Shown here one piece after another: positions 7,311-31,472 of a stretch of DNA of 41,183 nt; position 1 is the stretch's first letter, and every line of letters begins with the position of its first letter. A program made the translations under genes and the position numbers. The stretch is taken from positions 1-41,183 of the IMG/VR virus record IMGVR_UViG_3300042556_000844. The stretch is one strand, 5' to 3'. The notes below the pieces were generated by a model. That model saw nothing but the letters and a program-made list of their open reading frames with translations. It ran no database searches and was not told where the DNA came from. This stretch comes from a virus.

Positions 7311-8419
7311 GCAACCTCCACGGTATACGATTCGACATAGCCTGACGCCAATACTACATTGACGACGCCTTCAGGTACACGCAATGGAACCCCTTTTTTG
7401 AAGAAGTAACTTTTGCCTGCTATATCGCATTGGACCGTTCGGTTCAATGTGACGTTATGCCAAAGGGTCGCTGTTTCGGGTTCTATTGCCGTCAACATTT
7501 TGCCTACAGGTAGGGTGTCGGCAAGTTTGCGGGCCGCTTTCTCCCATGACCATTCGTGTACTTTTGGCAACATTTTTTTGGCATGATCCAAATAGCGGTG
7601 ATGGTTGTTGTACATTTCTCGCATCGCTTCAGCCAACTCTTTCGGGTCGGATTCATCCCACATGCCGGTATAGATGTTGTATGTTGCGGGGGTTCGCTTG
7701 TATCCCAACACGATTGGTGACAGGTAGGCGAAATCTTTTTGCCCTGTCGAATCGTTGATGATCGTCGGGATACCCATAGCCATAGCCTGCAATGGCATCA
7801 GCCCGAAACCTTCGCCTCTGGTCACAGCGATGAAACAGTCGGCTTGCGCAAAATAGTCTATGGTTTCTTGTTCGGTGAACCATTCCCTGTGCATGAACAC
7901 ATTGTCAGGTAAAACAAGATCGGGTACACCGTACGCCTCAGGGTTCGGTTTCAAATGTAGTTCGGCGTCAAGGTCAGCAAGTTTGAACGCCTCAAACACG
8001 ATATCTAAACCTTTGCGCAACCATTGTGAACCACCAGCATGAAACCTGAACCGTTTGTTTGGTTCCCGTTTGCGTGGCTTCCAAATGTTTTTGTCAACCC
8101 CTAACGGTACGAGATGCACGTTGTCGTGATAGCGGGAGAACAGTTCAACATTATGGTTACAGGGTACGATGATCTGGTCATAGATGTTGCACCAGTCGCT
8201 TTGTTGTTGGTTCAATTCACTTGATTCCCACATCGTGAAACAGGCTCGATGCTGGTTTTTGTAAAAGGTTTTTATCTGGTATGGCTGCATCATGTTCACC
8301 ATCACATCGGCGTGTTCGTCTAGCGTGATATCTGCCGGTACATGTTCCATGAACCCTTTGTACATTGCACCGTACCCGTATCTTGGATGCGGATAACCAA
8401 GCCAAGACTGGTAGTTCAT
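7307..8419 (-). CDS. GT-B glycosyltransferase, family 4-like (370 aa)
   Basis: This retaining-type glycosyltransferase transfers a sugar from a nucleotide-sugar donor. The C-terminal Rossmann half is clear: LVPLGVDKNIWKP (about 103-115), FHAGGSQWLRKGLD (about 126-139) and the donor-site motif AVTRGEGFGLMPLQA (about 198-212), with E203 in the position typical of GT4 enzymes. About 60 residues after the GT fold form an extra C-terminal beta domain. The start at 8419 (ATGA with the upstream stop) is preferred to one 24 bases earlier. It is paired with the GT2 gene upstream and lies among virion genes, so virion or cell-surface glycans are plausible acceptors. Confidence 0.85.
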   Translation of the reverse strand: MNYQSWLGYPHPRYGYGAMYKGFMEHVPADITLDEHADVMVNMMQPYQIKTFYKNQHRACFTMWESSELNQQQSDWCNIYDQIIVPCNHNVELFSRYHDNVHLVPLGVDKNIWKPRKREPNKRFRFHAGGSQWLRKGLDIVFEAFKLADLDAELHLKPNPEAYGVPDLVLPDNVFMHREWFTEQETIDYFAQADCFIAVTRGEGFGLMPLQAMAMGIPTIINDSTGQKDFAYLSPIVLGYKRTPATYNIYTGMWDESDPKELAEAMREMYNNHHRYLDHAKKMLPKVHEWSWEKAARKLADTLPVGKMLTAIEPETATLWHNVTLNRTVQCDIAGKSYFFKKGVPLRVPEGVVNVVLASGYVESYTVEVA

Positions 8420-9120
8420 TGAGATACGCTGACAAAATTCCAATGTGAAGCATCCTGAAATTTGATGCGTGGAACCTCATTACGATCACATAAGGCTTGT
8501 AGATATTCGCTGATTACCTTTTCAAAAAACGGGAACACGTTGTCGCGGTAAACGTGACCTACAGTAATGGTTGGTATTGGCATCACTTTGATTGTTTTCA
8601 ACCCGATGGCTGCCCACGCCAACGGATATCTGGTATCTATTTTTTCTAAACCTATCCGCAAATCCATTGCTGCCCTTCGCCACACCGAAGAAGTAATCAA
8701 AGTGGCGGCAACGATTATCGATTTATCTTTCAATGATGTTATGTAGTCGCGGGTGAACCCTCGGAACCCTGGGTTTGTTTCGCCTGCGTTTGCAGAATAG
8801 TGAAGGATTCTGTCGGTGCCATCAAGCAAAGGCAACAGCGTTTCAATGGTTCCTGGCAACAAAGTGTCGTCATCTCCGATGACCCAAACATATTCTCCTG
8901 TGCCAACCGATAACCCACGGAACACGTTCGGGTCGCCGTCAATGTTTTGATGCCGTTTAGAGTATTGAAGGTTCGGATATTTTGTACAAAAATGTTGTGC
9001 GTATCCGTCGTTGTCGCTGACAATCACTTCGACACCTTCCACAACTTGTGGCATGATGCTCGCTAAACATGCTTCAATGTCTGGTCGCCTGTAGGTTGGA
9101 ATGTAGATTGTTAACCGCAT
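8416..9120 (-). CDS. GT-A glycosyltransferase, family 2-like (234 aa)
   Basis: The start MRLTIYIPTYRRP, the segment EVIVSDNDG (about 31-39) and the metal-binding DDD at 83-85 in VWVIGDDDTLLPG are classic for family 2 inverting glycosyltransferases. No membrane segment is present, so it would act in the cytoplasm. ATG at 9120 overlaps the upstream stop by one base (TGATG); the TTG three bases earlier is less likely. Together with the GT-B enzyme downstream it forms a two-enzyme glycosylation module inside the late operon. The acceptor is not known. Confidence 0.85.
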   Translation of the reverse strand: MRLTIYIPTYRRPDIEACLASIMPQVVEGVEVIVSDNDGYAQHFCTKYPNLQYSKRHQNIDGDPNVFRGLSVGTGEYVWVIGDDDTLLPGTIETLLPLLDGTDRILHYSANAGETNPGFRGFTRDYITSLKDKSIIVAATLITSSVWRRAAMDLRIGLEKIDTRYPLAWAAIGLKTIKVMPIPTITVGHVYRDNVFPFFEKVISEYLQALCDRNEVPRIKFQDASHWNFVSVSQ

Positions 9121-9353
9121 CAATCGGCGATCTTTTCTAGTTTCGCTGAGCCATCAATTTTTGTTGGCTGCCCACCCGTTTTGCGTATCCGTTTATAAGC
9201 ATCCAAATCTTTATCAAGTACACGTTCTTTAGCGTTCAAATCTGCGACATTGTGACGTGTCGGCATCGCCGAACCTGACACACGGACATGGCTGATACGG
9301 CAAGCGAAGCAGCCTTCAACGTCTAGATTCGGATGTGTTTCCCTGTGTTTCAT
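9120..9353 (-). CDS. Small CxxC protein (77 aa)
   Basis: The N-terminus has HRETHPNLDVEGCFACRISHV, a CFAC zinc-knuckle-like motif with nearby His residues. It continues into a charged, Lys-rich C-terminal half. Short proteins beginning HRETHP...GCF-C are frequent in structural operons of actinophages; none has an assigned function that I know. It sits between the repeat-protein pair and the glycosyltransferases, overlapping the latter by one base. Confidence 0.65.
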   Translation of the reverse strand: MKHRETHPNLDVEGCFACRISHVRVSGSAMPTRHNVADLNAKERVLDKDLDAYKRIRKTGGQPTKIDGSAKLEKIAD

Positions 9354-9359
9354 AATCCC

Positions 9360-9644
9360 CTAACTGATATATGCGCCGTAACCTGCCGATGTTAAAGCCG
9401 CAACTTCGGCGGCGTCAACAATGTTATCTGATCCACCCCAATAAACTTTGCTGATCGTAGTGATGTCGTTCGGTTCGTTTTCTGTGAACGTGCCGTCAGT
9501 CAACAAGAACACGTTTCTGCCCCGTGGTTCGTTGTCGAAATGTTTGAACAGGTTGAAAGCCAAACGGACTTCTTCAGATGCGAACTCGTTCGGTGGAATA
9601 CCAAGCGCCACAAAGTCGTCTGTAGGTGGGTTAAAAATACTCAT
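9360..9644 (-). CDS. Small structural protein with duplicated C-terminal module (94 aa)
   Basis: The C-terminal 50 or so residues (VFLLTDGTFTENEPNDITT then SKVYWGGSDNIV and SAGYGAYIS) match the end of the neighbouring 358-aa protein (VYKLVDGTFTEVEQ, SKVYWGGTKNFV, SAGYGSYVT). The N-terminal 40 residues are unrelated. The gene overlaps the upstream one by four bases. The shared module probably docks both proteins to the same virion partner; this is inference from the duplication. Confidence 0.7.
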   Translation of the reverse strand: MSIFNPPTDDFVALGIPPNEFASEEVRLAFNLFKHFDNEPRGRNVFLLTDGTFTENEPNDITTISKVYWGGSDNIVDAAEVAALTSAGYGAYIS

Positions 9645-10717
9645 GTTACGTAACTACCATAGCCTGCTGATACAAGTTCATCTTTTTCTTCTTGGGTTAC
9701 AAAGTTCTTGGTGCCACCCCAATAAACTTTTGACACCTGATCGTATTCGCGTTGTTCAACTTCGGTGAATGTGCCATCAACCAGTTTGTATACGTTCACA
9801 CCAGCGTATTGTGGGTCGGCATAACGGAACAGTCGACCAGGGATACTTGTATCAAACCTGTCGGCTGAACGTATCTCGGTTGTTGACGGTGTACGGAACA
9901 GCAACAGTTTGGTCTGTGTGGCGCTCTGTGTGCCTGTGCCTGTGGCTGTGGCTGTGCGTTGGCAAACACGGGCCGAAACAATGCTGCGGGTACCGATACC
10001 TGAGCCTGTGGCGGTACGAAACCTTGTAGTAAAACTTGTGGTACTGGATGCCCCTGAGCCGTTCCCTGTTGCGCTACGAGGGGCGATATGAAGCGGGGTG
10101 GCATTAGATGACCCCAAACCTGACGCTGACGCTGTACGGGCGCGTGTGACCTCAAACGTGTTCGATGATGTACCTGTGCCTGAAGCAGTAGCGGTACGCA
10201 AAACAAGACGCAAACCTGTAGCAGTCTGAGAACCCGTACCTGAACCTGACGCTGTGAAAGCACGAACAACGTTACGGGTAGCAACAGACGAACCTGTACC
10301 AGAACCCGTAGCGGTACGGGGCGCAATATGCAAACCAGTAGCACCACCAGCAGTAGTACCCTGACCACTAGCAGTAGCGGATCGGGGAACAACACGTTCA
10401 CCTTCAGCGACACTAGAACCAATACCAGACCCCAATGCCGTACGTTTGGCGATAAGCACAATCGCTGTTGATGATGAACCTAACCCTGACGCTGACGCCG
10501 TACGCCCAACTATCCGTAGACCTGACGCCGATTGTGTACCTGTGCCTGCACCTGTGGCGGTACGTGCGGTTACACCACGAAAGAAACCTTGAGTGTTCGC
10601 AAACGGTGACGCAAAATAAATAACTTTGCGTGGCGCATAATTAGGTACCTCGGCAAATTCCCTGAACCCAGGGGTGTCCGTGAACCCGAAAGTAAAATCG
10701 GTGACTCCAGTAGCCAT
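9641..10717 (-). CDS. Ser/Thr/Gly-rich repeat virion protein (358 aa)
   Basis: After about 50 residues the protein contains roughly eleven imperfect repeats of about 20 residues, each of the form R-T/S-A-T-x-S-G-x-G-S/T followed by a short hydrophobic stretch (for example RTATGSGTGSSVA). A C-terminal module of about 60 residues is shared with the 94-aa neighbour. The repeats predict a repetitive beta structure with many surface Ser/Thr. Its position between the capsid and tail genes suggests a fibre, whisker or head decoration. The Ser/Thr content beside two glycosyltransferases makes glycosylation possible. Confidence 0.7.
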   Translation of the reverse strand: MATGVTDFTFGFTDTPGFREFAEVPNYAPRKVIYFASPFANTQGFFRGVTARTATGAGTGTQSASGLRIVGRTASASGLGSSSTAIVLIAKRTALGSGIGSSVAEGERVVPRSATASGQGTTAGGATGLHIAPRTATGSGTGSSVATRNVVRAFTASGSGTGSQTATGLRLVLRTATASGTGTSSNTFEVTRARTASASGLGSSNATPLHIAPRSATGNGSGASSTTSFTTRFRTATGSGIGTRSIVSARVCQRTATATGTGTQSATQTKLLLFRTPSTTEIRSADRFDTSIPGRLFRYADPQYAGVNVYKLVDGTFTEVEQREYDQVSKVYWGGTKNFVTQEEKDELVSAGYGSYVT

Positions 10718-10731
10718 AGGGCTACCTCACC

Positions 10732-11094
10732 CTAATCGAGGCTGAGAGTTAACGCGGTGATCTGAAACGTGTCACCGGCAGTAACAGCCGCAGACGACGA
10801 CAAAGCGCCAGTCCACAAACAGTTACCCGCAGTTGAATTATCCCACAAAGAAAAATGCGAATAAGTTTCCGTAGTGGAAACATTGGTCCATTCGATAGTT
10901 GCCGAAGCAGACATAGAACCACTTGAAGCCGCACTAAACGTAACTTCTTTACGAGTTGTTTCCGTAGCAGCATTGCTTGTACCTGCTTCACCAGGATCAC
11001 CTGTGTGCAGTTTTGTGTAAACGTTGCTAACCGAAAACGATTGTGCGCGGAGAGCATCCAAAAATTTGTTTTCTGCGTAATTAGAAATAGACAT
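10732..11094 (-). CDS. Small virion protein, LHTGDPG family (120 aa)
   Basis: MSISNYAENKFLDAL leads to YTKLHTGDPGEAGTSNAATE and then TWxxx-type beta strands (IEWTNVSTTETYSHFSLWD). This pattern (a short helix, L-H-T-x-D-P-G, then a small beta sandwich ending TFQITALTLSLD) is widespread in phages as a head decoration or tail-fibre-associated protein. It follows the capsid gene across a terminator-like hairpin. Function is assigned by family resemblance only. Confidence 0.65.
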   Translation of the reverse strand: MSISNYAENKFLDALRAQSFSVSNVYTKLHTGDPGEAGTSNAATETTRKEVTFSAASSGSMSASATIEWTNVSTTETYSHFSLWDNSTAGNCLWTGALSSSAAVTAGDTFQITALTLSLD

Positions 11095-11131
11095 TTGTTA
11101 CCTCACACGAAATAATAGCAGAACGAGAAAA

Positions 11132-11160
11132 GGGGTCAGGCAGGGGAAAAGCCTGACCCC
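11132..11160 (-). terminator. Rho-independent terminator after capsid gene
   Basis: A perfect 10-bp stem GGGGTCAGGC / GCCTGACCCC with a 9-base loop is followed, in the minus-strand direction, by TTTTCTCGTTC. It lies 30 bp downstream of the capsid stop. It probably terminates part of the transcripts so that capsid mRNA exceeds downstream tail mRNA. Confidence 0.8.
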
Positions 11161-11189
11161 CCTCTCAACTTACAACTGAACTATATGGT

Positions 11190-12149
11190 TCAGGCGCCGA
11201 GGCTTGAAGCCGACTCGATACGACGAAGCGAAGCCTCGCGGAATCGAGCATAGCCACCGAGCCAGTACCAACCGACAGGTTGGAAACGTGACAACACATC
11301 AACTACTGGACCGCGTACGACACGTGGGAACGCGCCGTTGCCGTCAACGATTGAGTGTGCCTTCGCCAAAGCCTGACGGCCTGCGATGTGTGTGCAGTAA
11401 GCATCAACTGTTCCAGTCGATCCTGAACCGTTTGAGGCGTTCTCAAAGATTTTGGCTCGTGGAGTCTCAATGAAACGGACACCTTCAAAAGCGCCGATTT
11501 CACCGTTGTAGATGCCTGCTGGATCGCTGTACACGTGCGGGTCACGCCACGATGCTACGCCTGTCTCCTTGCGAAGATCGTACGAAACGTCTGGGTGAAT
11601 GTAACCCATGTACATGCCATTGAACGAAACTGCGTTCGCTTTGCGAAGTGCAGCAACAACCTTGCGGATGTCGTTTGCTTCAATGATGTCCGTTGCTTCA
11701 ATTTCGGTGCGAGCAGTTGGGGTTGTTGAACCGCCACCACCGTAGACAACGTTTGTTCCTGCGGACAGTACCTCGCGGATAACACCGTCAACCGAGATAC
11801 CTGCGTTGTAACCAACGAGGTTAGCGGCTGCCGAATCCACATCAAGGAACGATGTGCCACGAAGTTTCGCTGTTGTGTTTACGGCGTTGCCGTATTCTTC
11901 CAACGTTACTTCAACTTGGCTGTCGCCCATAACTACTGGAGTTACGTCTGTGTCCTCAGTAAGTGTCGAAGTCTTTTCAGCGAGATCGTTGAAAATTGTG
12001 AACTTGACCGATGAACCTGGCATTGCTTGTGCGACCGGCATAACGTCTGCGACCGCATCGAACAAAAGTTCGCTACGAAGCGCAAAATACGCAATCCGAT
12101 CAAATGCAACCTGATCTGTAAGAAGGTTGCTTGTTTGTGTTTTTGACAT
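11190..12149 (-). CDS. Major capsid protein, N4-gp56 family (319 aa)
   Basis: The protein shows the N4-gp56 capsid pattern: an N-terminal helical region (VAFDRIAYFALRSELLFD), KFTIFNDLAEKTSTLTEDTD, LEEYGNAVNTTAKLRGTSF, then MGYIHPDVSYDLRKETG and IGAFEGVRFIETPRAKIFE. It self-assembles into the icosahedral shell. Length and gene place (directly after a scaffold-like gene, before small head proteins) agree. The ribosome site AGGAAATAACAGGAA precedes the ATG, and a bulged hairpin lies between the scaffold stop and this site. A terminator follows. No protease gene is nearby and no processing signal is evident. Confidence 0.88.
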   Translation of the reverse strand: MSKTQTSNLLTDQVAFDRIAYFALRSELLFDAVADVMPVAQAMPGSSVKFTIFNDLAEKTSTLTEDTDVTPVVMGDSQVEVTLEEYGNAVNTTAKLRGTSFLDVDSAAANLVGYNAGISVDGVIREVLSAGTNVVYGGGGSTTPTARTEIEATDIIEANDIRKVVAALRKANAVSFNGMYMGYIHPDVSYDLRKETGVASWRDPHVYSDPAGIYNGEIGAFEGVRFIETPRAKIFENASNGSGSTGTVDAYCTHIAGRQALAKAHSIVDGNGAFPRVVRGPVVDVLSRFQPVGWYWLGGYARFREASLRRIESASSLGA

Positions 12150-16183: not shown

Positions 16184-19100
16184 AATTCGTCAACCTCAGA
16201 TGATAGTTCACGATCCCACACACGTTGGAAGTCTGGTTCAACTTCTGACAATGCGGTACCGATATTAAATAACCATTGACGCAAATCTGCTGCTGATTTT
16301 GCTGTAGCAAAACCCCCAGGCTTGCCCCCCGATTTTACATAAGAATCAACTGCTTTGGTGCGATACTCCAAGTATTCTCGTACCGCTTGAGCGATGGGGT
16401 TATCTGCAAGCCGTGTATCGTTCACGGCCCGACCCATTTCTTCAACGTTTCGTTCAAATTCGCCCAAAGTGAATATGGCTTTTGCGGGGAAACCAGGGTA
16501 TTGTTCGTGGATTTTTTGACGTTGACGAGACAACCATGATTTAACTTCAGCATTTGGATATTTGCCAGCCTGTTTTTTCAGGTCACTATAAATCGAATTA
16601 CCTATCTTGTATTGGGCAAGATCAATCATTTCGTCAGCGCTTAATCGTTTGCGTTGACCCAACCGTATTTGACGTTCCCACACAGAGAACGAAAAGTCAT
16701 CTCCACCTGTAGCAAAATAGGCGGCAACGTTTTTGTACGCAGACATGACATCTTTGTTTTTGCGTTCCCAATCACCGAACTGATCTGATGCCTGAACGCC
16801 TGGTTGAACCGATTGTGTTTTGGATGAAATGTATAGAAGCGCGTCATCTCCGTGACGGTTTAAGAATTCTTTTACTGCCGTGTCGTAGTTTTCTTGTTGC
16901 AAAACTTGGAACTCTTTAACCAAAAATGACGCGTAAACATCACCTTGATCGGTTTTGATGATTGCTTCAGGATTTCCTACTGTCGGTCCTGCAAACTGCG
17001 ACAAAGCCCGTAAGCCGGTGAGTACGCGGGCGCGCCATTTTGAGTCTTGTAGCAAACGTTCTTTTTCGGCTGGGTCATTCAGTTCGTATTCGCCTGATGC
17101 GGACATTGCTCGAACTGTTTCACCGTAAGTATTTGCGTAAATGGATTGCAGTTTTCCTTCGTTGTCTCGTAACGCAGAATACATTTTGCTTGCCCATCCA
17201 GGGACTAAAGCGCCTGGTTCTTTTCTTCCATACGGGAGAAGTACGCTGATGATCGAATCTGTTGATGGTGTGTCTGGGATTATTTCTGATGCAGCCATCT
17301 GTACAACAGGGCCGACAGCAGGGATGACTTGCAAACCCATCGATAAGCCTTTGACGTTTGCTTGCAATGGGGCATTTACGCCTGTCAATAGTTTCGTAAA
17401 TTCCCCCGAAAACGGCAAGTTGAACGTATTTGCCCCTGTGATTGGGTCTTTATAGAAGAATCCTTGACCATCGTTGTCGGGATCAAAATTGGTCGCACCG
17501 TTATATATCAGTTGTGCGCGACGAATTGTACGTGGGTCTTCAACAGCAAACTTTGCATAACTTGACAAAATTTCACGCCACGCGGCACCGAAAGGAATGA
17601 TGATTCTCATTATGTCTTCAAGGTTGTTGCGTTCTGATGCGTTGAACAATGTTTCTTTTGTTGATTGAAGTGCCCTGATTTGGGAATAGTCCTCTAATTG
17701 TTTGACTGTTCCTGTTCCGTTCGCTGAATTTAATTTTGCAACAAGTTCGTCGTATTGTTTTTTGCCACCAAATAATTGTTCTGGATTCATTTCGAGTCGT
17801 TCGGCGCGACCAGGAATTGAACGCAACAAATCTCGTGCTTCGTCTCGACTCAAAAGGTCGGCGTTCTTGTTGAATTGTTCATAAAAGAATTGACGAAAAA
17901 CAGGTGAGCGTTCATACTTTGCGCTCTTTCTCCCATAAAAACCAAAGAAACCATCGACAGCACGATTTAATGCTTTGTTTGCTTGTAATGCTTTTTCGCT
18001 AATTTCTTTTGTTTTTGGAACACCAACAGTTTGCGCAAATTTAACCCAATCAGGCAACGTATTTACTGGTGAGTTGTACAAACCTGTTATGTATCCCTGT
18101 AGTTCTTTTTTGCCTTCGGCAGAATCCCATACATCAAAGTTGGAAAGACGTCGAGCAGTCCAAGAATTAGGTCCGTTTACCGAGGTGACTACGGCGAGGA
18201 TTGGTTCATCGCCATCCATTCCCATTCGGACTATTGACCCAACACCTTGCCTCAATGAACCATCAAAAAAATCTGCGTCAACTAAATTGTTTGGGTTGAT
18301 TGTTTCTGACGCTGTAAGTGGCATCCTTCGGTGAGCAATAGCAAATCGCAACGTGTCATCTCCACCTGTCAATGCTTGAATACGTGGGTTGCCTAAACGG
18401 TTGACCCATGCCGCCAAAACGTCGTCATTGACTCCACCTTGAGCGATGCGAACAATGTGATGCCGACCTGTCGTGACATCAACGGTGTCTAATCCGCCTT
18501 CAAGATAACGGCGCAATTTGTCCAATGCGGCTACTGCTTTGGGGTCATTGTTGTTTCTGAACCAAGCAACCATTTCATCTTGTGGGATGCCTTTGGCTAC
18601 CGCGTTGTTGATTTGATCTTGTGAAAGCCGACGCAATTCGTCGTATACACCTTCTAGGTATTGTTCTTTGTTGCCTATCTTGTTGACCGTGATAAAGGCA
18701 CCGTTTCGGATACCGCGTTCATAAAGTTTCTTGGGGTCGTCAAGGTTGCGACGGATTCCGAACTCCAATGCTTCTTGGAATTTGCTTGCGTATTCATCAA
18801 AGTTTTGGGCTGTGTCAATAAAACCTTCATCCATTTGACCGACACCACCACGCATAAAACCTTCGGGTAGAGTTTTGTTTAGAACAGTCATTATGTAACG
18901 AAATGGATGATTAAAGAAACCGTCTCGACCTACGGCTGCCATGCGAATTTGTGCGTCAAACATGTTACGCATCACATAGCCACCGGTCATCAATGTCAAT
19001 GGTTTCCAAATTTCGTTTTGTAAATAATCGCTGAGCGCTGTGACTGCGCCTGGTTCGCCTGCTCGTCTAGCAACATTTCTACGCACGAAAGGATTGCTTG

Positions 19101-25744: not shown

Positions 25745-26154
25745 ACAAAACCATCTGCTACCATCACACCACTAAACCACGGCTGTACACCTATTGCAAG
25801 GTGCGGGGCATTAACACCAGGAAACTGGGGTAGATGATCCTGTAACGGGATCAAGCAGCGTGAACAACGTACAAGTTCAAACAAGGTGTCGGCTAAAACA
25901 ATGGCTAACGGCTACCAACTCAAAAGAGTAAAACGTGGGGGGAAGTACCTGTCGCACATACGTTTGACCTAGCGCACTCGCATACGCTCGCTTGCTCGCA
26001 GCGACCAAAAGCACCCTCGACGCACATGCCTCTTTTTTTGCCGTTTTTTCTGACCACAAAAATGAACACACAAAGAAACACCTATACATATACATAGGGG
26101 CGGACGCCTCGGCAGACCCCCCGTCAGGCGTCACGGTGCGTGGTGGCTTGGCTG
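25745..26154. other. Non-coding control region between divergent operons
   Basis: This stretch of about 400 bases has no convincing gene. It holds small hairpins (CCAG-GAAA-CTGG at 25817-25828; GATCC/GGATC at 25836-25852), three CTCGC repeats (25977, 25987, 25995), two T-rich runs near 26031-26050, and an inverted repeat GACGCCT/AGGCGTC at 26103-26132. Such a mix fits a regulatory region and perhaps an origin or packaging site; nothing specific can be assigned. Confidence 0.5.
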
Positions 26155-26170
26155 CCGAACGTTTGTTCGG
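26155..26170. promoter_or_regulatory. SOS (LexA) box 1
   Basis: CCGAACGTTTGTTCGG is a perfect 6-bp palindrome with a 4-base centre, matching the CGAAC-N4-GTTCG core of Gram-positive and actinobacterial LexA boxes (the centre deviates from RNRY at one base). It lies upstream of the early operon and 33 bp, about three helical turns, from box 2. Confidence 0.65.
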
Positions 26171-26188
26171 GGTTCTGTGCTAATGCTA

Positions 26189-26202
26189 CGAACATGTGTT
26201 CG
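26189..26202. promoter_or_regulatory. SOS (LexA) box 2
   Basis: CGAACATGTGTTCG fits the consensus CGAACRNRYGTTCG at every position. With box 1 it forms a tandem pair on the same face of the helix, so two LexA dimers could bind side by side. The pair lies about 150-200 bp before the early genes, with a TAGCAT -10-like sequence between the boxes on the minus strand, so either direction could be controlled. Confidence 0.7.
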
Positions 26203-26260
26203 GTTCGAAACAGGTGGGGGGCAAACGGGTGTTCGTACCGGTAAGTTTCTGTAAGGTTCG

Positions 26261-26291
26261 CCTAACACTTTTGATCTGATCGTTTGTTAGG
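26261..26291. promoter_or_regulatory. Inverted repeat, possible operator
   Basis: CCTAACA (26261-26267) and TGTTAGG (26285-26291) form an inverted repeat around GATCTGATC. A related GGCTTAACA follows at 26294-26302. The repeats lie between the SOS boxes and the early promoter and may bind a regulator. No regulator protein can be linked to them. Confidence 0.4.
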
Positions 26292-26331
26292 TTGGCTTAA
26301 CATTGCTGTGACGGATGCCATGCCGCGAAAC

Positions 26332-26360: not shown

Positions 26361-26409
26361 CTTTCTAGTTGGTTCTTATGGTGAGAACCCAATAGAGAAA
26401 GGGTTGGTT

Positions 26410-26787
26410 ATGTTGAAAGATATTGACATGAATTTGATTAACGAACAGCGTTTCAGTTTGTTGGATCAAATCGAAAATTGCGCAAAACCTAATTTGGTTG
26501 CGTTAAATGAATTGGTTGATGGTTGGAGTGTTTGGCAAACAGGTGGAATGTGTTGTGTGTTGGGTTTCAGTTTTGCCGATGATTCCGAACATGAAGACGG
26601 TCATTGTTTGATGGTTTCGCCCGAGAATAATTTGGGTGCAACTGTTGAAGAGAATCAAAACTGTGTTTGGCTTGTTGGTCACTATGGTGGCTCATCGGGC
26701 AACACTAGTGAATGCTTGTCGTTTGATTCTTTTGATGATGCCGTCAAAGAGGTTGAGCGCATTTTGTTTGAGGAAGGGGTGTTGTGA
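26410..26787 (+). CDS. Early protein of unknown function (125 aa)
   Basis: First gene of the rightward operon. The start ATG at 26410 is six bases after AGAAAGGG; the TTG at 26404 touches the ribosome site and is less likely. The protein is acidic, with two aromatic-rich blocks (DGWSVWQTGGMCCVLGFSF and CVWLVGHYGGSSGN), likely a small globular alpha/beta fold ending in a helix. Four cysteines are not spaced like a zinc site. No family recognised. A role in host takeover is suggested only by its position. Confidence 0.7.
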   Translation: MLKDIDMNLINEQRFSLLDQIENCAKPNLVALNELVDGWSVWQTGGMCCVLGFSFADDSEHEDGHCLMVSPENNLGATVEENQNCVWLVGHYGGSSGNTSECLSFDSFDDAVKEVERILFEEGVL

Positions 26788-27005
26788 TGTTCAAGGTTGT
26801 TGAAGGTTTTGGCGACTTTTCAGATTTTTCGAATTGTTGGGGCTGTGATTTGGTCAGAACATTCGGGGATCATTCCGAGGCTGTCAAGTTTGCCGAGGAT
26901 CATTACAGCAAACAGATCAAGTTAAAGGGCGATGAATGGCAGTCTTTTTTCACGCTTGTTCTTGATCTTCAAGAATTCAATTCATTCAAATATCGCCTTG
27001 TCTGA
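26787..27005 (+). CDS. Early protein of unknown function (72 aa)
   Basis: ATG at 26787 overlaps the upstream TGA by one base, with AGGAAGGGG eight bases before. The protein is rich in Phe and Asp (FGDFSDFSNCW) and ends in LQEFNSFKYRLV. No recognised domain. The first copy of the structured RNA element begins 8 bases after its stop codon. Confidence 0.65.
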   Translation: MFKVVEGFGDFSDFSNCWGCDLVRTFGDHSEAVKFAEDHYSKQIKLKGDEWQSFFTLVLDLQEFNSFKYRLV

Positions 27006-27012
27006 GGTGATC

Positions 27013-27067
27013 GCCTAGCCCCTCGGGGGTAGCCCGTCATAGGGCGACTAGGCACAAGGCGAAAGCC
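27013..27067 (+). ncRNA. Structured RNA element, copy A (three-way junction plus GNRA hairpin)
   Basis: P1 GCCTAG/CTAGGC (27013-27018 with 27048-27053) encloses P2 CCCC-TCG-GGGG (27019-27029) and P3 GCCC-GTCATA-GGGC (27032-27045). Four bases (ACAA) lead to P4 GGC-GAAA-GCC (27058-27067). An A-rich tail (AACAAAACCAACA) then runs to the ribosome site of 27100. Copy B at 27423 has the same fold with compensatory changes in P1, P2 and P3. It lies in the untranslated gap before an early gene and is probably a cis-acting leader. Confidence 0.75.
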
Positions 27068-27099
27068 GAAAAACAAAACCAACAGAGAAAGGGCAAGAA

Positions 27100-27399
27100 A
27101 TGGAAACGAAGAAAGCATGCAAGGTTAGTGAGTCTTATCGGGTGGCGTTACGCTGCAAATATCTAGGACCAACCGATCATCGGGGTTCTAGAATTTCGAT
27201 TCAACGCTACGAGAGCAACACTCACGGGAAAGACCCGAACCGATTGATTATCTCATGGGATTACGCTCTGAACATCGGCGAGAATTACGCCGAGGCAGTT
27301 CGGCAGTATGTTGAAAAAGCAAATTGGGGGGGTCAATGGGTCACTAGCACGATCACCGATGGCGCTGTGGCTGTCTGCATTGACGCTGTTACCGAATGA
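27100..27399 (+). CDS. Early protein of unknown function (99 aa)
   Basis: ATG follows GAGAAAGGG by seven bases. The protein is compact with alternating strand and helix predictions (YRVALRCKYLGPTDHRGSRI; NRLIISWDYALNIGENYAEA) and ends in AVCIDAVTE. A similar layout occurs in small phage proteins of unknown role; no family is recognised. It is flanked on both sides by the structured RNA, so the gene-plus-RNA arrangement may be a unit. Confidence 0.7.
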   Translation: METKKACKVSESYRVALRCKYLGPTDHRGSRISIQRYESNTHGKDPNRLIISWDYALNIGENYAEAVRQYVEKANWGGQWVTSTITDGAVAVCIDAVTE

Positions 27400-27422
27400 T
27401 TATTCGTTAAGATAGTTATATC

Positions 27423-27476
27423 TCCTAGCGCCTCGGGCGTGGCTTTTCGATAAGCACTAGGAACAAGGCGAAAGCC
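27423..27476 (+). ncRNA. Structured RNA element, copy B
   Basis: P1 TCCTAG/CTAGGA (27423-27428 with 27457-27462), P2 CGCC-TCG-GGCG (27429-27439), P3 GCTT-TTCGAT-AAGC (27442-27455), the linker ACAA, and P4 GGC-GAAA-GCC (27467-27476). Compared with copy A, paired bases change together (G-C to U-A in P1, C-G to G-C in P2, two C-G to U-A in P3), while the P2 loop, linker, GNRA hairpin and the tail AACAAAACCAACA stay constant. This supports a selected RNA fold. Confidence 0.75.
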
Positions 27477-27511
27477 GAAGAACAAAACCAACAAAAAGAA
27501 AAGGGGCAATT

Positions 27512-27709
27512 ATGAAAGAATTCCTAAAAAGCATTGAGGGCGTGAGCCTTGCGATGTTGAAAATGTGCGATGAGTGGCAAAAGTTAGATGAGCAAAGCAA
27601 TGAGCGAGTGCAGAAACTAGATCAATGGGCTGAGGCTTTTAATCTTTCGCTTGATGAAATCCCGTTCGTGCTGTTCTCTGTCGTTGATGAATTGTCAAGG
27701 GGGAAATGA
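27512..27709 (+). CDS. Early protein of unknown function (65 aa)
   Basis: ATG follows AAAAGGGG by about six bases, downstream of RNA copy B. The protein is almost wholly helical and charged (EGVSLAMLKMCDEWQKLDEQS, then ERVQKLDQWAEAFN), suggesting a short coiled-coil or helical bundle. It overlaps the next gene by four bases (ATGA). No family recognised. Confidence 0.65.
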   Translation: MKEFLKSIEGVSLAMLKMCDEWQKLDEQSNERVQKLDQWAEAFNLSLDEIPFVLFSVVDELSRGK

Positions 27710-27939
27710 TGGAACAGCAAAAGAAACTAGATTATGCACTAGCCGAACTAGATCGGAATCTAATCGAATGGGGCATTGATAACTATTTGGGGTATCGTAC
27801 GCCCGAGGTTCTTAGACTCTCGGTATCGGGGGCGACCCATCTAGTCGAATTGGTGAACACTCTTAACGCCGAGATCGTGCGACTGAATGCGATCGTAGGC
27901 GAATTGTCGTTAGAACTTGAGAAAGCAAAGGGGGAATAA
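27706..27939 (+). CDS. Early coiled-coil protein (77 aa)
   Basis: ATG at 27706 (a second ATG follows directly). Two helices are likely, KLDYALAELDRNLIEWGID and a C-terminal heptad region (LVELVNTLNAEIVRLNAIV then ELSLELEKA) able to form a coiled coil. It overlaps the upstream gene by four bases and the next by one. No catalytic residues or known family. Confidence 0.65.
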   Translation: MMEQQKKLDYALAELDRNLIEWGIDNYLGYRTPEVLRLSVSGATHLVELVNTLNAEIVRLNAIVGELSLELEKAKGE

Positions 27940-28283
27940 TGAGAGAGTTTTATCGAAATCCGTTTTGGGTTTATACTGGTGGGGGCATTTGGCTTTATAT
28001 GCGCAGATGCTCCGTTGGGGCTGTTTGTATCAGTTCGTTTGATGATCGTGGGCGATCATGTGACGGGTTCGTGCAGGTCACTTACACGCCTTTAGATTTG
28101 TCCCCTAAAGAGTATTTTTCCCATTCGTGGGGGCAAGATGGTGACACCTTTGAAACTTTTGAAGATGTTGACGGCAAAACGATGTTCAATGTTCGCCACG
28201 CTGCAAAACATTGTTCAAAGGTTTTGCCTGATGGCGTCAAGTTGTCAGGGTCAACCTTTTTTTATCCTGAAAGGGGGGTGTGA
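27939..28283 (+). CDS. Early protein of unknown function (114 aa)
   Basis: The start ATG overlaps the upstream stop (TAATG). The protein is aromatic and beta-rich (FWVYTGGGIWLYMRRCSVGAV; FVQVTYTPLDLSPKEYFSHSW), with four Cys and three His that do not form an obvious zinc motif. A small globular inhibitor-like fold is possible, but no family is recognised. Confidence 0.65.
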   Translation: MREFYRNPFWVYTGGGIWLYMRRCSVGAVCISSFDDRGRSCDGFVQVTYTPLDLSPKEYFSHSWGQDGDTFETFEDVDGKTMFNVRHAAKHCSKVLPDGVKLSGSTFFYPERGV

Positions 28284-28477
28284 TGTTATTCGATGACAAT
28301 TTTGCAGGGTTGGCTATGTTCGCCCTAATGGGGTTGATGTTCGCCTCTTACAAATTGGGCGAACTCATGGCAGAGTATCGGCACGAGTTGGAGGCAACTC
28401 GCCGACGCCACGCCACGATGAAACGCAAGACGAATGAATGGTACCTACAAGAAATCAACAACAGAAAGGAAAACTAG
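28283..28477 (+). CDS. Early single-span membrane protein (64 aa)
   Basis: ATG at 28283 overlaps the previous stop by one base; GTG at 28280 is possible but too close to the ribosome site AAGGGGGG. Residues of about 6-25 (NFAGLAMFALMGLMFASYKLG) form one membrane helix, followed by a charged, helical cytoplasmic tail rich in Arg and Lys. Small membrane proteins in early operons often act in exclusion of other phages; here that is speculation. Confidence 0.65.
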   Translation: MLFDDNFAGLAMFALMGLMFASYKLGELMAEYRHELEATRRRHATMKRKTNEWYLQEINNRKEN

Positions 28478-28650
28478 TGACAATTAGCAACAAGATCACG
28501 GTTAAATTCGATACAAACAGGAAATTAACCCTTGACGAGTTAAAAGGATTGCTTGATGCAATCGCAGCGCAGGTCAGCGATCCTGCCGATCATACGGGCA
28601 AAAGGAAACGGGCTTCTTTTTCTACCCTAAAAGTAGAGGTGACGGGATGA
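28477..28650 (+). CDS. Early small protein (57 aa)
   Basis: GTG at 28477 overlaps the TAG of the previous gene (TAGTG) and follows AGAAAGGAAA. A longer in-frame extension upstream is rejected because it only rereads the previous gene. The sequence (ITVKFDTNRKLTLDELKGLLD then AAQVSDPADHTGKRKR and STLKVEVTG) suggests strand, helix, basic loop, strand. No family recognised. Confidence 0.65.
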   Translation: MTISNKITVKFDTNRKLTLDELKGLLDAIAAQVSDPADHTGKRKRASFSTLKVEVTG

Positions 28651-29168
28651 ACGAACAACTACCTATCACGCCGTACAACGGCACGGGCGGCTATGCCGGC
28701 ACCGATACGAGTCGTGACCGTGCAGAACTTGAGGCTGTAAACGGTGCGCTTGCAGAGCGTCAACAAAGAATCTTAGACACGCTAGAGGCGCATGGTTCTG
28801 CTGGTGCTACCTGGAATGAGATCGGGCGACAACTGTATCTACATCACGGGCAGGTTTCGGGGGCTTTATCGAACCTGCATAACGGTGGTCATGTTTTCAT
28901 GCTGAAAGAACGACGCAACCGAAGTCACCCGTATGTGCATGCAAAGTTCCGTGACAGGTGGCGCGAAGATGAACGCCACGATGCGCCACGCCAAACCCGT
29001 GCAGGTGATCGCAAACGGTTAGCAGATGATCTGCTCGCCCTATGTCGTGAGGGCGTGGAACGGTACCATGCGAACGAGGATGACGCATGGCAAGCGTTTA
29101 CGCAGAACTCTTTAGAGTTCATGGATATGTTGGTCAAGGCTATTGATCGCCTTGACGGGAGAAAGTGA
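28647..29168 (+). CDS. Winged-helix DNA-binding protein (173 aa)
   Basis: The opening ITPYNGTGGYAGTDTSRDR is a signature start found on many phage proteins with a winged helix. The fold follows at about residues 38-90 (QQRILDTLEAHGSAGATWNEI, then LYLHHGQVSGALSNL as recognition helix and NGGHVFMLKERR as wing). The C-terminal 80 residues are helical and charged (DAWQAFTQNSLEFMDMLVKA). It may regulate phage or host transcription; its operator is unknown. It overlaps both neighbours by four bases. Confidence 0.75.
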   Translation: MNEQLPITPYNGTGGYAGTDTSRDRAELEAVNGALAERQQRILDTLEAHGSAGATWNEIGRQLYLHHGQVSGALSNLHNGGHVFMLKERRNRSHPYVHAKFRDRWREDERHDAPRQTRAGDRKRLADDLLALCREGVERYHANEDDAWQAFTQNSLEFMDMLVKAIDRLDGRK

Positions 29169-29461
29169 CAGGGCTGCTAGCCCTTGTTGTTCGTAGCCAT
29201 CGCAAGTTTAGGAAACCCCAAGCGAGAATGGTTTGGGTTGTGCGTCGAACTGACGGCAAATTTTGGGCTGGCGAATACAAGTGGCAAGGGCGCACCTTTA
29301 CCGATCATATCCCTTTCATCTACCTTTATGGCACGAGATCGGCTTGCATGGCTGGTGCTGAGCGTTGTGGATTTGCCAACGTTGAAGCAGTTGAGGTAGA
29401 GTTATCTAGGTTTGCGAAGCGACCAATGAAAAGGCGAGTCCACCATACTCGTCGTCGCTGA
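29165..29461 (+). CDS. Early basic protein of unknown function (98 aa)
   Basis: GTG start overlapping the upstream stop (GTGA). The central block VWVVRRTDGKFWAGEYKWQG and FTDHIPFIYLYGTRSACMAG suggests a small beta sheet plus helix. The C-terminus is strongly basic (RFAKRPMKRRVHHTRRR), suggesting nucleic acid binding. It is the last early gene and is followed by a terminator hairpin. Confidence 0.65.
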   Translation: MTGLLALVVRSHRKFRKPQARMVWVVRRTDGKFWAGEYKWQGRTFTDHIPFIYLYGTRSACMAGAERCGFANVEAVEVELSRFAKRPMKRRVHHTRRR

Positions 29462-29524: not shown

Positions 29525-29671
29525 TTAATTTGTTTTTGAGGTCGGGATCATTTCAACCGGTTTGGTTGAATGTTTTTTGGGGTTGTTGCAAACTGGCGGG
29601 CTGCTTGGCTTGACGTATAAAACTATTTTGATGTCGCATTGTGGGCATCGATAGTTTTGTTTTCTGCTCAT
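29525..29671 (-). CDS. Small zinc-ribbon-like protein (48 aa)
   Basis: ATG at 29671 overlaps the methyltransferase stop (ATGA). MSRKQNYRCPQCDIKIVLYV contains a CPQC knuckle, and SSPPVCNN supplies a third cysteine with a following His, resembling half a zinc ribbon. It is the last gene of the leftward block. The longer in-frame ORF upstream only overlaps the methyltransferase and is not used. Function unknown. Confidence 0.6.
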   Translation of the reverse strand: MSRKQNYRCPQCDIKIVLYVKPSSPPVCNNPKKHSTKPVEMIPTSKTN

Positions 29672-31191
29672 ATTTTGAGTAAATGTTTCCCGATCCATTG
29701 CGCTACGGGTGAGGCGACTCCGTTGCCGCATTGTTTGTATCGGTGTGTGTCGGCTTGTTCTGTGCCGTCTGCTTTCCATCGGGTATGGTCATCTGGCCAT
29801 CCCATTAACCGTTCACATTCCAACGGTGTGAGTCGACGTACTGCCATCGTTGGTTCGGCGATGAACATTTGAGCGTGATGTGATTGGGGTGATGGTTGTA
29901 ATGCCGATAATGAATTGGAATGATTTAATTCGGTTGCCGAGAAATTCCCTGCTTTAGCATCTTCACGAATTGAATAAGCAACTGCTTGCGCACCTGTTTG
30001 GTCAATTGTGTATGCAGGTGAATGTTCGTCGCCTACACCTAAACCGTTCTGATGTTTCTCTATGTCACGCCCATCTTGGATAGGTATGGCTACGGCGTGA
30101 CCTGATCCTTCTTTGCGTAAAGTTGGCCACGCTTTCTCGGATGGTTGAGCATCTAATCCTTGCGTATGGCTAAAACCTATGACCGGCACATTGTTGCCCC
30201 CTGTTCCCATTCGTTGTTTCAACGTTTGTACGGGTGGTTCGTATATTCGAACATCGTCAACCCGTGTGCCGTCAATTAGCATCAGTTCTTCAACTATTGC
30301 TAGTCCACCTTGATTCAATGATGGATCAGGTCGCCAAGTATCTAAAGTTCGGGCTTGGTCAACTTTGTTGACACCACTATCTGGATTTGATGATTTCATA
30401 CTGTTGGATGAAAGTGCATCAAAGTGATAGGCAACAGGTTCTACTACACATTTGTTTTCGTTCACATACTGGCTGCTAATCATCTTGGCATCCGAAGTAT
30501 TTAGTGAACCAACTATGTCTGATCCGAGGATGCCACCATCTGTTCCAATGCTCGTTGGAGTCTTGCTGGCAGCACTTTTCCTCGCCGGTTTGCCCTTCGC
30601 AAGATGCCCTGGCAGGCTTTCGGCGACAGGTAGTAGCGGGTTTGGACATCGTTCGGCGAGGACAGGATCGAAGATAGCGACGACGAACACGCGCCTTCGT
30701 CGTTGGGGTACTCCGAAGTATTGCGCATCCAGGACTGCCCATTCAATGACCATCGCCCCTGCTTCAGCCATTTCGTCGAGGATGATCCCGAAGTCAGCGC
30801 CTCGGTTGGAGTTGAGTGCGCCGACAACGTTTTCCCAAATAGAGATTCTTGGATATTGTCCATTAGTTTCCTTTCGTAGTTCTTTGATGATGCGTATACC
30901 TTCGTGAAATAATCCTGATCGTTCGCCTTCTAACCCGCTGCGTTTACCTGCAACCGACAGGTCTTGGCATGGTGATCCCCACGCAACGACATCTATGACG
31001 GGTGCTTTGCTGAGGATGTGTTTGCCTGTAAGGGTTGATACATCTTCCCATTTCGGCACATGAGGCCAATGCTTGTTTAGGATTGTGTTGGCGTGCTTAT
31101 CCCATTCGCATTGGAACACGGTTTCCATACCTGCTCGTTCCAAACCCATGTCGAAACCGCCGACACCGCTAAATAAACTTAAAACTTTCAT
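29668..31191 (-). CDS. DNA cytosine-C5 methyltransferase (507 aa)
   Basis: It transfers a methyl group from S-adenosylmethionine to C5 of cytosine. Motif I is VLSLFSGVGGFDMG (3-16), motif IV WGSPCQDLS with catalytic C75, motif VI ENV (120-122), motif VIII QRRRRVFVVA (163-172), and near the end LTPLECERLMGWPDD and QCGNGVASPVA. About 280 residues separate motif VIII from the C-terminal motifs, longer than usual, so the target-recognition region is large. The start at 31191 follows AAGGGGAAAC; a longer frame would overlap the upstream gene. No restriction enzyme is nearby, so it likely protects phage DNA. Confidence 0.93.
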   Translation of the reverse strand: MKVLSLFSGVGGFDMGLERAGMETVFQCEWDKHANTILNKHWPHVPKWEDVSTLTGKHILSKAPVIDVVAWGSPCQDLSVAGKRSGLEGERSGLFHEGIRIIKELRKETNGQYPRISIWENVVGALNSNRGADFGIILDEMAEAGAMVIEWAVLDAQYFGVPQRRRRVFVVAIFDPVLAERCPNPLLPVAESLPGHLAKGKPARKSAASKTPTSIGTDGGILGSDIVGSLNTSDAKMISSQYVNENKCVVEPVAYHFDALSSNSMKSSNPDSGVNKVDQARTLDTWRPDPSLNQGGLAIVEELMLIDGTRVDDVRIYEPPVQTLKQRMGTGGNNVPVIGFSHTQGLDAQPSEKAWPTLRKEGSGHAVAIPIQDGRDIEKHQNGLGVGDEHSPAYTIDQTGAQAVAYSIREDAKAGNFSATELNHSNSLSALQPSPQSHHAQMFIAEPTMAVRRLTPLECERLMGWPDDHTRWKADGTEQADTHRYKQCGNGVASPVAQWIGKHLLKI

Positions 31192-31211
31192 GTTTCCCCT
31201 TCGTGGTTTGG

Positions 31212-31472
31212 TTAGAACGGTTCTTCTGGTGGCAAAGGTTTTGTTGGTGCTGGTTTTGATGCCGGTTTTGTTTTGCTGACGTTCGTGGTGCCTGCCGGTG
31301 CGATTGACCATAGTTCTGCGTCATCAAACTTGGCGACCCGTTTGCTGAGAATCACAGTTTTTGTGTCGCCTGCTTTGGTGGTGACTTCGACTTCCATATC
31401 TGGTTCGCCTGCGAACTCTTTGATGCGTACGCCCCATGAGTCGTCTTTAAGTTTATAGAATGATGCTGACAT
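31212..31472 (-). CDS. Hypothetical protein (86 aa)
   Basis: The start follows AAAGGGGGAACATTC. The first 60 residues look like a small beta domain (YKLKDDSWGVRIKEFAG, then MEVEVTTKAGDTKTVILSKRVAK), and the end is a disordered Lys/Pro tail (TKPASKPAPTKPLPPEEPF) like those on single-stranded DNA-binding or partner-docking proteins. Small proteins of this type appear in actinophage recombination regions. No assigned function. Confidence 0.6.
   Translation of the reverse strand: MSASFYKLKDDSWGVRIKEFAGEPDMEVEVTTKAGDTKTVILSKRVAKFDDAELWSIAPAGTTNVSKTKPASKPAPTKPLPPEEPF

Follow-up and report, generated by a model that had tools for sequence, protein, structure and literature searches.

What is the RNA that occupies the only real gaps in the early operon of this virus, and what does it do there? 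The window analysed here is a virus record of 41,183 bases whose large terminase is closest to those of Streptomyces phages (26% identity), which makes an actinobacterial host plausible. Genes of the plus-strand early operon (26404-29461) abut or overlap except at two gaps, 27006-27099 and 27400-27511, and each of these sole intercistronic gaps holds one copy of the same structured element (27013-27067 and 27423-27476, Table 1). Upstream of the operon, at 26150-26305, lie repeated inverted repeats of the GTTCG type (CCGAACGTTTGTTCGG, CGAACATGTGTTCG) together with a pair of TTAGGTTNGCNTAACA-like repeats, which are possible repressor operators. On the minus strand, 29668-31311 encodes a protein of 547 aa that combines a C5-cytosine methyltransferase domain with a C-terminal part common to phage DNA methyltransferase and primase families.

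A covarying fold in two early gaps

An initial annotation had described one fold in both gaps, with changes in P1, P2 and P3 that compensate each other between the copies. Both copies lie where it placed them, and they do covary. In each, the fold is followed by an ACAA linker, a GGC-GAAA-GCC hairpin and the A/C-rich tail AACAAAACCAACA. The annotation had recognised no known class, and indeed no Rfam family matches the elements. An Rfam scan of the window region returned nothing at gathering score, and the candidates at E<=10, FourU (20 bits) and SAM-VI (15 bits), were dismissed as chance matches far under their cut-offs. ARAGORN called no tRNA in the window.

Table 1. Features of the two early-operon gaps, in window coordinates
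Feature	Position	Strand	Remarks
Upstream gene stop codon	27003..27005	+	ends gene 26784-27005; 7 nt ahead of element 1
tRNA-like element 1	27013..27054	+	sequence reading; covariation
Element 1 P1, acceptor-like	27013-27018/27048-27053	+	
Element 1 P2, D-arm-like	27019-27029	+	CCC-CTCGG-GGG
Element 1 P3, T-arm-like hairpin	27032-27045	+	GCCC-GTCATA-GGGC, loop GTCATA, link GA
Element 1 R73-C74 equivalent	27054..27055	+	AC, discriminator A at 27054
Element 1 P4 hairpin	27058..27067	+	GGC-GAAA-GCC
A/C-rich unpaired tail after element 1	27072..27084	+	AACAAAACCAACA; identical tail in L001, L002
Ribosome-binding site	27088..27093	+	AAAGGG, for gene 27100-27399; read directly
Downstream gene 1	27100..27399	+	99 aa, phrog_3199; start codon 27100
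tRNA-like element 2	27423..27463	+	sequence reading; covariation
Element 2 P1	27423-27428/27457-27462	+	
Element 2 P2	27429-27439	+	CGC-CTCGG-GCG
Element 2 P3, T-arm	27442-27455	+	GCTT-TTCGAT-AAGC, loop TTCGAT, link A
Element 2 R73-C74 equivalent	27463..27464	+	AC, discriminator A at 27463
Element 2 P4 hairpin	27467..27476	+	GGC-GAAA-GCC
A/C-rich unpaired tail after element 2	27481..27493	+	AACAAAACCAACA; sequence reading
Ribosome-binding site	27500..27506	+	AAAGGGG, for gene 27512-27709; read directly
Downstream gene 2	27512..27709	+	65 aa, no clear family; start codon 27512

Single-sequence folding of the two copies gave z-scores of -2.2 and 0.0, and the minimum-energy structure of copy 1 differs from the proposed one. 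Because such folding is unconvincing alone, the evidence for the fold is comparative. A motif scan of viral contigs located relatives ahead of a ribosome site and start codon, and 12 of these, chosen by sequence motif rather than by structure, were used for a covariation test. In this set 97.8% of cells were paired (77.3% when shuffled), nine pairs had changed on both sides, and the covariation score was 0.51 compared to 0.12, a value that none of 500 shuffles reached, in agreement with the earlier claim of selection on RNA structure. With 45 aligned elements, both sides had changed in 12 of 13 pairs and the score was 0.725 (0.154 shuffled).

Anatomy and reach of the family

Judged from its sequence, the element is a minimal tRNA mimic with an acceptor-like P1, a reduced D-arm and a T-arm, but without an anticodon arm. 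This likeness had escaped the initial annotation, whose P3 reads as the tRNA T-arm and in many relatives is GGTTCAAGCCC or a near variant. Compared with the tRNA family RF00005, the elements have a T-arm with the T-loop TTCRANN and a D-loop/T-loop contact but no anticodon arm, P1 and the T-arm being only 9-17 nt apart. Two classes can be distinguished. Class B, found in Streptomyces and mycobacterial phages and in some contigs, is 41 nt long, with a 5-bp P1, an 11-nt GG-containing D region, a 6-bp T-stem, a 7-nt T-loop (TTCRANN) and no linker. Class A, which includes both window copies, has a 6-bp P1, a 3-bp P2 whose 5-nt loop ends in G (90/90), a T-stem of 3-5 bp, a linker of 1-2 nt and a T-loop one base shorter than that of class B, either TTCRAT or GTCRTA. 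The T-loop of window copy 2 fits the canonical form and that of copy 1 is a non-canonical variant. A shared position, the constant distance and R-C dinucleotide described below, and the co-occurrence of both classes in one genome (L014), rather than sequence, suggest that the classes are homologous.

Across 169 distinct matches, the sum of T-stem, link and P1 is 11 or 12 in 159, more often 11, and this ruler is kept constant while P1 varies from 5 to 8, the T-stem from 3 to 6 and the link from 0 to 2. P1 is followed by R73-C74 in 139/139 elements (four with a 7-bp P1 counted), a feature that the search did not demand; C occupies position 75 in 5/139. Position -1, before P1, is T in 0/160, so discriminator A73 stays unpaired. 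A hairpin usually begins 2-4 nt past C74, with a sequence unrelated between elements. The P2 loop, ACAA linker and GNRA hairpin had been described as unchanging, which holds between the two window copies but not across the family, where all three vary: relatives have an R-C-N linker, and their final hairpins include TGC-GAAA-GCA, TCAGAC-AACA-GTCTGA and GGC-AAAA-GCC. By this comparison, the GNRA hairpin is one solution among many.

Since the search descriptor demands pairing in P1 and the T-arm, their pairing in its hits is circular, and we relied instead on the motif-selected set, on R-C and on pairs that were not demanded. Among 247 distinct elements, the D-stem pair D2-D8 is paired in 98.4% (50.7% shuffled), and D9 pairs with T-loop 7, the final base of that loop, in 98.8% (69.6%). 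D10 pairs with T-loop 6 in 98.0% (94.8%), and the middle P2 pair of class A in 98.9% (66.8%); covariation is strong in class A as well as class B. As read from these sequences, the D-loop/T-loop pairs are elbow contacts like those of tRNA.

Relatives with the same pairing, whose absence the initial annotation had named as grounds for doubting the fold, were found in viral contigs, in phages and with a covariance model. This model, built from the 12 motif-selected members, recovered extra copies in the same contigs, including four in L020 and two types in L014. In total we collected 698 elements (396 distinct), spread over 220 loci in Streptomyces phages, mycobacteriophages and uncultured viral contigs. 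A BLAST search of annotated phages with one member led to unannotated gaps of Streptomyces phages, most of which hold an element; Caliburn has ten and Amela nine, all of them within the leftward early operon, and the late genes have none. When the search was broadened, 149 records matched, among them the mycobacteriophages Papyrus (13 elements), Oaker (8) and Predator (7). Joe, phiScoe45 and Katalie carry eight each. The highest copy number per genome is 13-15, and single copies exist.

The family is large and apparently undescribed: it carries no annotation in the phage records that were read (Caliburn, Amela, Joe, Papyrus and Predator among them), and no description was found among the open-access papers searched. 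It has been overlooked by Rfam and by tRNA finders, with no tRNA called at elements in the window, Caliburn, Amela, Oaker, Papyrus or 29 viral loci. Background for the descriptor was two matches in 0.88 Mb of bacterial loci, and those bacterial-genome matches to the exact pattern that were inspected, among the matches listed, looked like chance or coding sequence. A narrow Streptomyces-type pattern occurred in 0/297 actinomycete genomes, giving no sign that the elements originated from host genes, although it is too narrow to exclude prophages. Elements are absent from phiC31, Immanuel3 and the cluster M phage PegLeg. One descriptor match each in phiC31 and Immanuel3 was implausible, and of two in PegLeg one overlaps an annotated tRNA and the other lies within coding sequence; matches in Arthrobacter phage Martha fall within a coding gene and were put down to chance. 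The early intercistronic gaps of Immanuel3, phiC31 and PegLeg contain other, simpler hairpins.

Other repeats are known ahead of small non-structural mycobacteriophage genes. In cluster K these are SAS, a 13-bp sequence, and ESAS, for which the authors report no pairing support (PMC3203893); in cluster M they are CR3 and CR4, with stem-loops (PMC7953290). SAS (GGGATAGGAGCCC, 3-7 bp before the start) is absent between both window elements and their start codons, and the cluster M repeats differ from the mimic in that PegLeg has none by our scan.

Placement between genes and exchange with hammerhead ribozymes

The elements are tightly placed. Among 647, 89% begin no more than 60 nt past the upstream stop, the commonest distance being 6-9 nt. 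In 83%, a start codon with a ribosome site follows at 20-70 nt. Elements that combine the two make up 77%, compared to 6% of random positions. The distance from element to start has quartiles of 36, 44 and 48, and at loci with more than one element all share the same orientation (614/614). The usual order is element, hairpin of varying sequence, ribosome-binding site and start codon.

In R4 (NC_019414.1), a phage of the same subfamily as Caliburn and Amela, the early operon has no tRNA mimic and instead contains nine type-II hammerhead ribozymes (41776-49461, minus strand), all nine above the Rfam gathering score and on the early-operon strand. Conversely, Rfam found no hammerhead in the window, Caliburn or Amela. 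Four homologous downstream genes (an OCR-like anti-restriction gene, gp76, gp74 and an acetyltransferase) are preceded by a hammerhead in R4 and by a mimic in Caliburn or Amela. The prophage-like record G344 (IMGVR_UViG_2894994769_000001, 8332-11889, minus strand) contains an operon in which four mimics accompany a single hammerhead, and one short gene there is flanked by a mimic and the hammerhead. The R4 array lacks annotation, and several annotated ORF starts span a ribozyme and are probably wrong; recognising elements and ribozymes explains such probably mis-called gene starts.

Hammerhead arrays in phages and prophages have been proposed to split long transcripts into single-gene mRNAs, and self-cleavage was seen in native polycistronic RNAs that carry them (Perreault 2011, PMC3088659). 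The mimics resemble these arrays in that multiple copies in one orientation lie between small phage genes, in the same operon and in some cases before the same genes. Unlike a hammerhead, which is self-cutting, the mimic is not known to contain a ribozyme core, and its cleavage would depend on an enzyme of the host. What two interchangeable devices have in common is, most simply, cleavage between genes, and the exchange indicates that the element is most likely an intercistronic mRNA cleavage site.

Proposed cleavage and its alternatives

We propose that the mimic is cut between early genes by host tRNA-maturation enzymes, as a precursor tRNA would be, to give single-gene mRNAs, and we assign this reading a probability of about 0.62. 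Within the polycistronic early mRNA, the acceptor-like stem, reduced D-arm and T-arm would form a tRNA elbow that the host enzymes take for a precursor tRNA, so that the message is cut at that point. For RNase P the cut would fall 5' of P1, with the T-loop as measuring point and R73-C74 being read; RNase Z may also cut, 3' of the discriminator. The resulting single-gene mRNAs would have a 5' end blocked by the element or by the following P4 hairpin. In sister phages, self-cleaving hammerheads would do the same job.

RNase P is the best candidate on these sequence features. A distance of 12 bp from the T-loop to the 5' end has been proposed as its measure, its RNA contacts the T-loop and pairs through GGU with R73-C74-C75, and hairpins of acceptor and T-arm suffice as good substrates (PMC11143913). 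The model substrate AT1 (acceptor stem, T-stem and T-loop; PMC11143913) shares with the elements the architecture of ~12 bp and the R73-C74 tail, whereas the elements are natural, lie inside mRNA, keep a D-arm remnant and have an incomplete CCA. RNase P recognises a tRNA elbow that lies a set distance away from an R-C tail, and we infer that this enzyme cuts the mimic, which would add new minimal natural substrates to its repertoire. Contact with the tail would be only partial, since position 75 is rarely C, and both the preference of the ruler for 11 and the T-loop of window copy 1 count against RNase P. Against cleavage itself, a cut so soon after the stop would expose the 3' end of the upstream message, and the tight spacing to the start codon is not needed by a pure cutting site.

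That spacing, and the start codon that usually follows, would suit the strongest rival, a cis-tRNA translation enhancer in which the fold stays uncut ahead of the ribosome-binding site, where it binds ribosomes and boosts translation of the next gene. There is experimental precedent: in-vitro translation rose 2- to 6.3-fold when tRNA-like elements were grafted ahead of a Shine-Dalgarno site (PMC9142559). However, an enhancer would leave unexplained why hammerheads take the same places in front of homologous genes, and it does not require R73-C74 to be invariant, the ruler to be constant or the element to sit just past the stop; we regard it as unlikely. Effects of these kinds may also combine, as a cut can leave the 5' end blocked and the ribosome site open.

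Less likely again is a stabiliser, in which the compact fold and the hairpin after it block an exonuclease or 5' end and shield the following message, or the preceding 3' end, without being cut. Early messages often require protection, but a simple hairpin would suffice for it, leaving the tRNA-specific features unexplained, and protection within a continuous message matters only with a cut nearby, which leads back to cleavage. Of the three roles listed by the initial annotation (translation leader, stabiliser and decoy), the first two thus survive as rivals to cleavage or as its consequences; cleavage, favoured by the hammerhead exchange, was missing from its list.

A ligand-binding riboswitch or other cis-regulator that merely resembles tRNA seems very improbable. 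The yjdF riboswitch governs translation through a fold that resembles tRNA, and like cis-tRNA leaders it places a D-loop/T-loop elbow upstream of the ribosome-binding site (PMC9142559), but it has a four-way junction, an anticodon-like arm and a ligand, whereas the elements have no anticodon arm and occur in many copies per operon. Neither yjdF nor any other Rfam cis-regulator matched the elements at gathering score. Copies in one genome precede unrelated genes, which argues against a gene-specific riboswitch; there is no conserved core like a ligand pocket besides the tRNA elbow bases; and inspection found no conserved alternative pairing with the ribosome site. A Shine-Dalgarno sequestration switch by a TCGCC/GGCGA alternative pairing in window copy 1 was rejected, as relatives do not keep it. 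Just as improbable is a decoy that titrates a host tRNA-binding factor or tRNA-targeting defence, which the many copies and elbow mimicry would fit, since elements without an anticodon arm would be invisible to anticodon nucleases, strict one-per-gap placement is needless for a sponge and some genomes have a single copy.

Cleavage at tRNA or tRNA-like folds has parallels: mitochondrial polycistronic transcripts are punctuated by tRNAs that RNase P and RNase Z excise, and the mascRNA of MALAT1 is a tRNA-like fold that serves as a cutting signal for tRNA-maturation enzymes. In both, folds between messages act as cutting signals, as we propose here, but the elements belong to bacterial viruses, are ~41 nt long without an anticodon arm, are not real tRNAs, and their cutting is predicted from sequence. 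Each component is familiar, be it RNase P recognition, organellar tRNA punctuation or the hammerhead array; we found no earlier report of a mini-tRNA family dedicated to punctuation in bacterial viruses. We lean, a little less firmly than towards cleavage of the mimic, towards the broader proposal that phages of actinobacteria independently use two RNA-cutting devices that can replace each other, mini-tRNAs cut by a host enzyme and hammerheads that cut themselves, to punctuate early genes, the mini-tRNA being an RNA family that is so far undescribed, numbers hundreds of examples and would be the first reported dedicated tRNA punctuation in bacterial viruses of which we found any record. If the elements are cut as proposed, tRNA punctuation extends to bacterial viruses, and phage hammerhead arrays, whose purpose the 2011 work did not settle, gain a concrete role. 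The mimic could also offer a compact mRNA-splitting part for actinobacterial engineering.

Further features lie in these phages and contigs. Caliburn gaps near 1640, 2660, 3420, 4500 and 7050 contain a repeated GTGTGYTACCTTCGC-like sequence, in some cases just upstream of an element, that looks like a phage promoter. In Papyrus, an unannotated gap (17062-17521, plus strand) encodes a GOLLD RNA (Rfam 190 bits). In the 6261 region of contig L142 (minus strand), what follows the GNRA hairpin (CAATCCCTGCGGCGGGTACAA) duplicates the 3' half of another element type, seen in the 10154 region of L117, which suggests recombination between elements.
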